Positions 1 to 64,000 of a stretch of 64,000 bases of DNA are shown here, in pieces; the first letter of the stretch is position 1, and every line of letters starts with the position of its first letter. The DNA is from Heterotrichella gracilis. Lineage: Eukaryota > Sar > Xanthophyceae > Tribonematales > Xanthonemataceae. The DNA lies in contig JAULBX010002225.1 of assembly GCA_032358255.1 (NCBI GenBank), forward strand, positions 62,001 through 126,000. Reading direction: 5' to 3'. The position numbers and the translations under genes were made by a program. The notes under the pieces were generated by a model. The model ran no database searches, was not told the DNA's origin, and worked only from the letters and a program-made list of their open reading frames with translations.

Positions 1-135
1 AAAATCAGTTAATTAGGTAGTTAGTTACATGCATTCCAGCAACACCGCCAGGTTAGCAGTCAGTCTTGCACATGCGGCGCCACGCAGCTCTTTCCTGGCA
101 CTGTTTGAAGCACTTACTGATCCCACACGATTGAG
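1..135. repeat. dispersed repeat copy, inverted relative to 59893-59997
   Basis: The reverse complement of this stretch closely matches 59893-59997. The shared core reads GCGCCGCATGTGCAAGACTG, with GTGGGATCAGTA on one side and GAATGCATGTA on the other. The two copies differ by substitutions and small indels. On the minus strand both could encode a short Arg/Ala-rich peptide, but no gene model needs it here. I take it as a diverged dispersed repeat of unknown class. Confidence 0.55.
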
Positions 136-152
136 GAAACCTATAAAGGCTG

Positions 153-62200: not shown

Positions 62201-64000
62201 CTTTTGAAATCCTTTTTAATCCACCTACTGTCTATTCACCCCTTCTATATTGCTTTTTCAGATCCGTGTTAAATAACCTTTCAACTCACCCCCCTGTTTC
62301 CTCCCCCCAAAGGCACATTTTCATTCTTTTCCTTTTGCCTTTATGTACTTTTAACCCTATTCCTCCCCTCTCAGGCCTGCTTGAGGGCGCCCACCTTGGC
62401 ATCGGCCTGGGCCACGAATTCCTGCGCCACTGCATGCGCACACGGGTGCTGGTGCATGTCATCGACGGCACAAGCCCCGACCCGATCGGCGACTTCAACG
62501 CCATCCAAACGGAGCTGCAGCTGTTCAACGAGGACCTGGCAGACAAACCCCAGGTAGGGCTTTGGTCCCACAGTTTGTCGTTGGGTGTCTTACCCAGGCC
62601 ACGAGTTCCTCTGCGTGCGCACTCAGATGCTGGGGCATGTGGCGGGGTGCATGTGATTGACAAGTGCCTTGTTGGGCAATGATAAGCTGGGCATTCTGAT
62701 AATCTCCCGCCCCTTGTAGTAGACGGCGTTCCTACACATTCACGTACACCATTCGGGGGCGTGCATTCTAGATTGAAAGGGAAAGGTTTTCCTTTGACCA
62801 GAAAAATTTCATTCATTTCCTCTGAAAATTCTGTATCTTGATTTTCCCGTCCCCTCCCGCGCAGATCATCGCCTACAACAAGATGGACGTCCCTGACTCC
62901 TCCGATTACGCCCCCGAGGTGGTGGAGTACCTGCAAGGGTACGGGGTCCCCAAGGAGGATATAATATGCATAAGCGCGGTGACTGGGCAGGGGGTGGTGG
63001 AGCTTGTGCGGCGGGTGCGTGCGGTGCTTGATGCTGTGGATGCGCCTGAGCAAGGGGAATGGGGGAGGAGCGTGGAGGGGAGGACGGCTGGTGCTGGCAG
63101 GGTGAACGTGCAGGTAGGGATGGAATCAAGCGGGAATGAAAAGGAGGATTTTTTGTATGAAAAATGTGCAATTTAGGGGGTGGTTTTGAGTTTTTGAGGT
63201 GTGTGTGCGGGGGGCTTGTTGGCGAGGATGCGCCTGAGCAAGGGGAGTGGGAAGGGAGCGTGGAGGGGAGGACAGCTGGTGCTGGCAGGGTGAACGTGCA
63301 GGTAGGGATAGAATTAAGTGATGAGCAATATGGGAAATTTGAAACACAGAATGTGCAAATTGTGGATGTGAATGTGCAGGGTAAAAACGTGCAGGTAGCG
63401 ATTGAATGCAAGTGTAAACAATAAGGAAAATCAATACCTTAAAAATGTAGAAAGTCAAGGGGGGGTGGGATGATCGTGTAGGTAGGGTGCTCCCTCCCCT
63501 GCGTATCACGCACCATGCCTTCTGTCCAAATCTCTGCATTTGATCGCCTCCCTCACCCTTCCCCAACACACACACCTGACCACCTATTTTTGCTCCCCCC
63601 TTTTCCCCCTCAGGCCATCCGCAAGGCCCGAGCCGCCAGCCGCATCGATGACTTCACCATTGAAGCTGACCTGGCAGGACCCAGGGTGTGGACCGTCAAG
63701 GTGAGGCACATTTGCAGACCTAAACCCTGCAATGTAAATCCTAAATCCTAAACGACTTTACCTTTGAAGCTGACCTGGCAGGTCCCTGGGTGTGGACCGT
63801 CAAGGTGGGGCACACCTAAACCCTAAACCCAGTAAATGTTAAATCCAGTTACATCTATCACTGTGCCCCAGGTGTGTTGCATCCACCCTAATAGTGGCCA
63901 CACGCCATGCATGGCGCAACCCAAGAAGGAAGCCTTGCAAAACCCTGCTGCTTGAGACTTGGGCGCTGCCGTCATCATCCGCCTGAGGCCTGCATTCCTG
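59211..64000 (+). CDS. Obg-family GTPase, probably plastid (ObgC/CPSAR1-like), 3' end off the window
   Basis: A GTPase of the Spo0B-associated Obg family. The plastid forms act in chloroplast ribosome maturation and development. Firm exons are 60281-60455, 60953-61125, 61338-61404, 61767-62075, 62375-62553, 62865-63113 and 63614-63700, all in phase. An acidic exon 59748-59882 and an ATG exon 59211-59307 ([20 protein letters not shown]) are likely upstream, but the two do not join in phase, so the N-terminus is unresolved. The Obg glycine-rich fold is clear: [32 protein letters not shown] and [19 protein letters not shown]. The G domain has G1 [10 protein letters not shown]2 DYPFTT, G3 [21 protein letters not shown]4 NKMD and G5 ISAVTG. 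The last visible exon ([16 protein letters not shown]) enters the C-terminal part, which continues beyond 64000. An acidic linker ([10 protein letters not shown]) precedes the Obg fold. Confidence 0.92.
59893..59997. repeat. dispersed repeat copy, inverted relative to 1-135
   Basis: Matches the reverse complement of 1-135, as described there. It begins right after the donor of the exon 59748-59882. Confidence 0.55.
60560..60690 (+). repeat. decayed copy of the Obg exon 60281-60455 3' edge
   Basis: TACTTTGCCACTGCATGCAT and on to GGAGAAATACGGGCCAAAAG parallels 60368-60456 ([20 protein letters not shown], then [10 protein letters not shown]), with its donor-side G run. A smaller copy of the ATG-exon 3' edge lies at 59368-59400. 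Confidence 0.85.
61585..61622 (+). repeat. decayed copy of the Obg exon 61767 5' edge
   Basis: GAGTCGCTTGTAGTAGCAGG, then GGCCAAGG, resembles CAGACACTCATAGTGGCAGG, then GGGCAAGG, at 61770-61800. Confidence 0.65.
62596..62665 (+). repeat. decayed copy of the Obg exon 62375-62553 interior
   Basis: CAGGCCACGAGTTCCTCTGC and on to GTGATTGACAAG parallels 62408-62470 ([20 protein letters not shown]). Confidence 0.8.
63226..63305 (+). repeat. decayed copy of the Obg exon 62865-63113 3' edge with donor
   Basis: GATGCGCCTGAGCAAGGGGA and on to GTGAACGTGCAGGTAGGGAT is about 95 percent identical to 63038-63120. Further GTGAATGTGCAGG and ACGTGCAGGTAG echoes lie at 63368-63400. Confidence 0.92.
63719..63808 (+). 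repeat. telomere-like spacer and decayed copy of the Obg exon 63614-63700 3' edge
   Basis: CCTAAACCCTGC, then TAAATCCTAAATCCTAAACG, precedes a copy (63752-63808) of [16 protein letters not shown] plus its donor (real 63651-63706). Confidence 0.92.

Follow-up and report, generated by a model that had tools for sequence, protein, structure and literature searches.

Repair by polymerase theta and by template switching produces templated insertions, in which the filler includes a copy of nearby sequence, Daphnia has provided work on intron gain by tandem duplication or break repair, and in plants Schiml, Fauser and Puchta reportedly observed in 2016 that paired nicks give rise to short tandem duplications. 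The gain of introns through tandem duplication or the repair of breaks is also the subject of a further source (PMC4974935). In primates and rodents interstitial telomeric sequences have been inserted at double-strand breaks, and Nergadze and colleagues (PMC2246262) list duplication of the flank, a minority outcome, at 6 of the 130 loci from rodents and 4 of the 25 from primates. The interstitial telomere tracts of Chlamydomonas are ascribed to possible chromosome fusion (PMC6549138). The present analysis concerns a stretch of 64,000 nt from the alga Heterotrichella gracilis (the window; contig JAULBX010002225.1, positions 62,001-126,000, of an assembly of 68.5 Mb in 903 contigs), whose introns hold direct copies of the neighbouring exon edge, many of them separated from that edge by a filler of telomere repeats. 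It is proposed, with a probability of about 0.58, that breaks near exon edges are repaired in a way that leaves a copy of the edge along with filler, often telomeric, and so lengthens introns.

The genome has in common with the mammalian interstitial telomeric sequences (PMC2246262) short internal arrays of telomere repeats at presumed break sites and an occasional duplication of the flank; the repeat is very likely the organism's own telomere unit, its short internal arrays exceed chance and flanks are duplicated. Unlike the mammalian cases, 55 of the 158 interstitial telomere tracts found here have directly repeated flanks (score at least 20; the criterion differs from the mammalian one), the density of tracts in introns is about 4.5 times that in intergenic DNA, and most of the duplicated flanks are exon edges. 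The plant duplications are likewise said to be direct copies of tens of bases arising from the repair of offset nicks, whereas in Heterotrichella recent copies are usually separated by filler and exon edges are favoured. The copies differ from the products usually ascribed to polymerase theta or template switching in their greater length, with a median of 57 bp where the spacer is telomeric, and in their position at exon edges; any such enzyme is putative here. As in intron gain by duplication or repair, a duplication beside splice sites alters introns, but in this case existing introns grow; a clear new intron was not found, with 2 of 141 genic pairs falling in the class donor,acceptor. No report of intronic exon-edge copies with telomeric filler was found in a literature search that was thin on subscription journals. 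How introns grow is an open question that is often answered with transposons. A copied exon edge, often telomere-filled, would be another route, and the 171 graded traces in 0.4% of the genome could be used to measure its rate, its hot spots and the selection that filters splice signals.

Copied exon edges and their end points

Direct pairs were detected by full local self-alignment with short tandem repeats masked (self-BLAST overlooked the pair at 49287), and pairs inside arrays are not mutually independent. The gene models were home-made, by a small gene finder trained on the 252,125 bp formed by the window and a sample of 21 further stretches (188,125 bp from 18 contigs, two adjoining the window); this material is 0.4% of the genome in one assembly, the G+C content is about 54% by base counts, and pair density is uneven among the stretches. 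At an offset of at most 3000 bp and a score of at least 20 the window holds 70 direct pairs against 5 inverted ones, and three dinucleotide shuffles of it yielded 1, 0 and 0 direct pairs. At an offset of at most 1000 bp and a score of at least 22 the full 252,125 bp contain 171 direct pairs (61 in the window, 110 in the sample) and 6 inverted pairs (2 and 4). An earlier sequence-only reading of the window had described worn copies of exon edges in at least eight genes as a sign of continuing local duplication, and a frequent process of that kind is borne out in the window and in the other stretches: all 11 of its listed examples share positions with a local direct-repeat pair (best scores from 21 to 180), pairs at score 20 occur in 9 of the 12 genes of the window, 16 of the 21 sample stretches hold one at score 22, and the copies range from identical to barely recognisable (identity from 0.63 upward). 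The three window genes without a pair at score 20 lie on the minus strand at 9536-10994, on the minus strand at 18666-19266 and at about 29930-30795, the last being presumably UMP1-like, a name assigned by eye. A one-sided exon-anchored pair was found in 10 of the 21 sample stretches and in 15 of 52 sample gene pieces. Intron-only pairs number 28 in 85 kb and intergenic pairs 18 in 85 kb, with a further 12 straddling a gene end; since the densities of intron-only and intergenic pairs are about equal, it is mainly the exon-anchored pairs that make genes richer in pairs. Worn 3'-end copies lie just downstream of three genes (8317-8667, 17341-17702 and 50401-50656), and last exons are therefore copied too.

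The preference for exon edges depends on the null model that is applied. When pairs were shifted freely within their gene, 69 of 141 crossed a border against 56.3 expected (standard deviation 5.2, maximum 72 in 500 shifts). Wholly exonic placements can be excluded from the null because an inserted copy with its filler would there break the gene, and under this restriction 70 of 148 pairs crossed a border against a mean of 41.8 (maximum 56, 300 shifts), while 117 of 148 (79%) touched an exon against a mean of 51.2 (maximum 65, 300 shifts). For pairs of at least 87% identity the same restricted null gave 19 of 46 crossing a border against a mean of 9.8 (maximum 18) and 42 of 46 (91%) touching an exon against a mean of 13.5 (maximum 22). 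As the slower change of exons could favour the detection of exonic copies, random duplications with decay were simulated, and 42-48% of those detected touched an exon, depending on identity class, the range in a cruder simulation being 30-50%. Given the gene models and the assumed unit length and rates, exon edges are favoured beyond geometry and decay, weakly with respect to free shifting and strongly among viable events. Thus the earlier expectation that exon borders would be hotter than other positions, checked on 252 kb, holds among viable placements and amounts to a weak excess when shifting is free.

In 90 anchored events (43 donor, 47 acceptor) one copy lies on the exon and the other in the intron. 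Among those of at least 85% identity, which are here called young (for pairs in general the limit is 87%), donor-side copies (n=21) take in a median of 6 nt of intron and 39 nt of exon, and acceptor-side copies (n=19) a median of 8 nt and 35 nt. The intron part was shorter than the exon part in 80 of the 90 events as against 64% in simulation, and the copy ended no more than 15 nt into the intron in 59 of the 90 events and in 33 of the 40 young ones, as against 32% simulated. The intron copy came before the acceptor-spanning copy in 33 of the 141 genic pairs and after the donor-spanning copy in 20, the reverse orders being absent. The sequence-only reading had placed copies of 5' edges upstream and copies of 3' edges downstream of the exon, and that order is confirmed; it is not independent evidence, since geometry forces it once one complete exon survives.

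Telomere repeats between the copies

The copies of young pairs are seldom adjacent: 46 of 56 have a spacer of 12-642 bp, and just 10, with a spacer below 12 bp or an overlap, abut in the manner of a plain tandem duplication. Telomere words (TTTAGGG/CCCTAAA) are present in 47 of the 115 spacers whose length lies between 12 and 250 bp, and the fraction of spacers carrying them rises with copy identity (0.29, 0.28, 0.40 and 0.56), so that the filler words go with young copies. The telomere 8-mer covers 7.8% of the spacers, against 2.8% and 2.1% of outer flanks of the same length and 0.7% of the copies themselves, and the 9-mer occurs in 46 of 123 spacers of at least 10 bp against a mean of 10.2 (maximum 18) for 300 random non-coding placements. 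The 252 kb contain 767 telomere 9-mers where about 13 are expected by chance, and no more than 34 were found for each of 19 other heptamer rings of the same composition. Directly repeated flanks, which were seen at about a third of the telomere tracts, occur at 9.8% of 600 telomere-free intron positions used as a control; none of the 158 tracts has inverted flanks, and none of 767 mismatched flank pairs has direct ones.

The repeat unit of the fillers is very likely the organism's own telomere repeat, because six-unit arrays stand at contig starts in chromosome-end orientation (they occur on 16 contigs, on 7 of these within the first 300 bases); some six-unit arrays are probably internal. Three-unit CCCTAAA gave 834 matches genome-wide, with overlapping matches counted and true telomeres included, against 0 for the reversed control and 0 for a permuted heptamer, and the first 100 listed matches lie mostly far from contig position 1. 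A match to the telomerase RNA-binding domain is present in the genome. There are 129 intronic, 29 intergenic and 3 exonic telomere tracts, the total intron and intergenic lengths being near-equal, and the ratio of tract density in introns to that in intergenic DNA is 4.47 (bootstrap interval 2.83-11.88, 22 stretches). Intron length is 359 and 356 for introns with tracts or with copies, against 246.5, a comparison that is confounded because long introns offer more room. A second recurrent class of filler-like sequence consists of GGT-rich runs close downstream of donors (3075-3136, 3230-3310, 3551-3679, 16252-16463 and 47058-47174).

Under the break-repair proposal, DNA breaks would occur in or beside introns, concentrated at exon edges, and error-prone repair would duplicate the edge as a short direct copy, made up as a rule of 35-40 nt of exon and a few nt of splice site, with a stretch of filler remaining, in most recent cases, between copy and original. 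Telomeric filler could be produced by telomerase extending a break end, or by capture of telomeric DNA in end joining. The intron-side copy would be free to decay while the exon survives, the intron would become longer, and splicing would act as a filter on the orientation of filler near acceptors. The filling of offset nicks would yield copies that cross the border, while copies that start inside the exon would rather suggest copying from a nearby template. We infer that filler and copy come from a single event of break repair, and the enzymes and timing of such events are likewise putative; co-transcriptional structure as the cause of the exon-edge preference is a guess. It is also possible, though a tentative thought and one that is more probably wrong than right, that in this lineage breaks are especially frequent at exon edges, perhaps owing to structures formed in transcription, and that repair with telomerase-added repeats is its main source of new intron sequence.

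A number of observations weigh against the break-repair proposal. An exon-anchored event is missing from 11 of the 21 sample stretches, and the border excess is only weak under the free-shift null. The telomere 8-mer is absent from 68 of 115 spacers, so that telomeric filler is not universal. Around the intronic copy telomere cover amounts to 0.131 towards the filler and still to 0.049 on the far side, which implies a contribution from repeated events or from tracts that were already present. In 18 introns with tracts of both orientations the order was GC in 10, CG in 6 and CGC in 2, and a two-end rule for telomerase is thus not clearly followed; the distances of tracts to the two junctions (14 against 15 of 31) point to no primed side. 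The copy begins inside the exon, short of the splice site, in 8 of 40 young anchored events, some of which may be errors in exon calling, and for these copying from a nearby template fits better than the filling of staggered ends. Finally, 48 of the 171 pairs have a spacer below 12 bp or an overlap, as in plain tandem duplication.

The last figure is what would be expected if short plain tandem duplications happened at random places and those crossing a border survived and stayed detectable, with the telomere-like words arriving later or earlier. The mild border excess under free shifting and the direction rule would follow as well, and in sample stretch L016, at 4452-4657, similar telomere-like letters stand after both copies. 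This explanation is nevertheless unlikely: the 46 spaced young pairs have an unmatched spacer, a duplicated unit that included telomere words would place them after both copies whereas they are found mainly between, and random placement produces neither the touching of exons nor end points at splice sites. Plain tandem duplication across the border was the origin that the sequence-only reading had given to the copies, and on this point it is not supported as it stood, in view of the spacing of the young pairs, the enrichment of their spacers in telomere words and the copies that start inside the exon.

Orientation, decay and the remaining explanations

On the sense strand 88 intron tracts read CCCTAAA, 37 read TTTAGGG and 4 are mixed. 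Telomeric filler shows a ratio of C-type to G-type of 21:1 on the acceptor side and of 6:7, with 2 mixed, on the donor side. Over 267 introns CCCTAAA words peak 20-40 nt upstream of acceptors, at 21 per 1000 positions against about 1-12 in other bins, and TTTAGGG words peak in the first 40 nt after donors, at 12 per 1000 positions. Both peaks and the bias of 88 to 37 would be natural if the intronic words were selected splicing signals, CCCTAAA as branch site and G runs near donors, unrelated to the duplications. That is an unlikely reading, since it accounts neither for multi-unit exact heptamer arrays in the hundreds genome-wide, nor for tracts with directly repeated flanks, nor for the absence of strand bias in donor-side filler. 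If the tracts come from break repair, insertion would be blind to strand, CCCTAAA could serve as a branch site, and TTTAGGG beside acceptors would be removed by selection; the near-exclusive use of CCCTAAA there would arise because TTTAGGG places TAG acceptors just upstream of the true one.

Exon and intron copies differ by 15% at the first codon position, 12% at the second and 22.9% at the third, and columns that are intronic in both copies by 20%, which indicates that the exon is constrained and that the copy decays freely as non-coding DNA. The acceptor AG was kept in 64 of 66 columns and the donor GT in 34 of 42; with the value at codon position 2 (88%) taken as neutral expectation, AG is kept somewhat above that level and above its neighbours, and GT no better than its neighbours. 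A less strict count gave 36 of 38 acceptor dinucleotides kept against 24.8 expected from overall identity, and 20 of 28 for donors against 18.2. The retention of AG, and three pairs of class AD,AD that span both borders in both copies, are the observations that would suit functional alternative exons or spare splice sites, which are very unlikely given the free decay by codon position and a donor GT that is not favoured. Those three pairs are the only whole-exon duplicates among the 141 genic pairs, and the copies as a group are not the complete exon duplications of tandem or mutually exclusive exons. There is thus little support for the earlier suggestion that the process maintains spare splice sites; acceptor copies may have a role.

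The insertion of a mobile element or introner with target-site duplication would likewise leave inserted sequence flanked by direct repeats, but it is highly improbable, as the length and sequence of filler are variable, the copies are far longer and more variable than target-site duplications usually are, and 3 of 3 non-telomeric fillers tried, out of many, had no second genomic match (in a search that skips simple repeats and very common words) and so did not behave as multi-copy inserts. Least credible is an assembly artefact, for although 5 of the 56 young pairs are identical, so that single young cases could be assembly errors, most pairs differ, often with indels and distinct spacers, where a misjoined duplicate would be near-identical.

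Catalogue and neighbouring features of the window

Eleven window protein models were joined by hand and 8 of these compared with Pfam, of which 7 matched a family at E 0.001 or better. Five were above the Pfam cut-off in their main family, namely eIF3e (eIF3_N, PCI), RCC1 repeats, an amino-acid transporter, a leucine carboxyl methyltransferase and Obg. The sixth match above the cut-off was the cyclase domain (Guanylate_cyc) of a minus-strand gene at 20835-28769, a single model that joins an ion-channel-like N part (Ion_trans, below the cut-off) to a nucleotide cyclase domain. A GAT match fell below the cut-off, and gene A matched no Pfam family. The copied edges are collected in Table 1.

Table 1. 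Exon-edge copies in the window, with positions, strand and alignment details (TRF, Tandem Repeats Finder)
Positions	Strand	Copied edge	Details
1092-1582	+	Acceptor plus 5' edge, copied three times in worn form and once in part	Upstream of true edge, exon 1547-1678; scores 20-98; in-frame join
1923-2637	+	Exon 2134-2361, acceptor side duplicated (copy near 1956) and donor side duplicated (copy about 2443-2575)	Score 138, identity 0.66; TRF period 206
4478-4650	+	Gene A, last exon: copy of acceptor plus 5' edge, 87 bp spacer	Identity 0.88
7636-7732	+	eIF3e-like gene: donor edge, telomeric filler, copy	Filler of 37 bp holding TTTAGGG words; identity 0.87
7954-8082	+	eIF3e-like gene: copy of acceptor plus 5' edge, exon 8056-8324	Score 21, identity 0.84
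13646-13844	+	Acceptor-edge copy, telomeric filler, true edge	Identity 0.74
16039-16177	+	Acceptor-edge copy, telomeric filler, true edge	Identity 0.86
16204-16510	+	Donor edge, GGT-rich spacer, copy 16463-16510 (called a small exon by the gene finder)	Identity 0.92
22589-22755	-	Donor edge of exon 22715-22792, telomeric filler, copy	Identity 0.82
24852-24967	-	Donor edge, 42 bp telomeric filler, copy	Identity 0.97; alignment stops at donor GT
25862-25989	-	Acceptor-edge copy, 60 bp telomere-like filler, true edge	Identity 0.88
26356-26750	-	Array of exon-edge copies with telomere-like spacers	Score 180; TRF period 103
27383-27494	-	Donor edge 27455-27494 and identical 40-base copy 27383-27422, 32 bp telomere-repeat filler between	Identity 1.00; clearest case
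27522-27677	-	Acceptor edge, filler with telomere repeats, copy 27628-27677	Identity 0.84
35525-35748	-	RCC1-repeat gene: donor edge, telomere-like filler, copy	Identity 0.87
36743-36871	-	RCC1-repeat gene: donor edge and copy, separated by 39 bp of filler with telomere repeats	Identity 0.98
47739-47964	+	Amino-acid transporter gene: acceptor-edge copy and true edge, with 40 bp of filler between them that lacks telomere words	Identity 0.88
49105-49427	+	Amino-acid transporter gene: donor edge, copy 49287-49427	Score 73, identity 0.77
53454-53567	-	Copy of exon 5' edge starting 2 nt inside the exon; telomere repeats in the 60 bp spacer	Identity 0.96
62989-63466	+	Obg-like gene: donor edge, two or more worn copies	Scores 48, 28, 27
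63650-63814	+	Obg-like gene: donor edge and copy 63754-63814, separated by 43 bp of filler with telomere repeats	Identity 0.92

Three further features of the window were recorded. One of its two inverted pairs within 1000 bp at a score of at least 22 is a large intergenic inverted repeat at 44133-44463 (arms 44133-44266 and 44337-44463, score 114), which resembles a small hairpin-forming mobile element. An inverted match of 76 bp links 54-129 with 59901-59976, 60 kb apart (score 60), and is probably a dispersed repeat. An intron of the cyclase gene contains an AT-rich region at 23100-23690 with palindromic ATAACGTTAT-like units.

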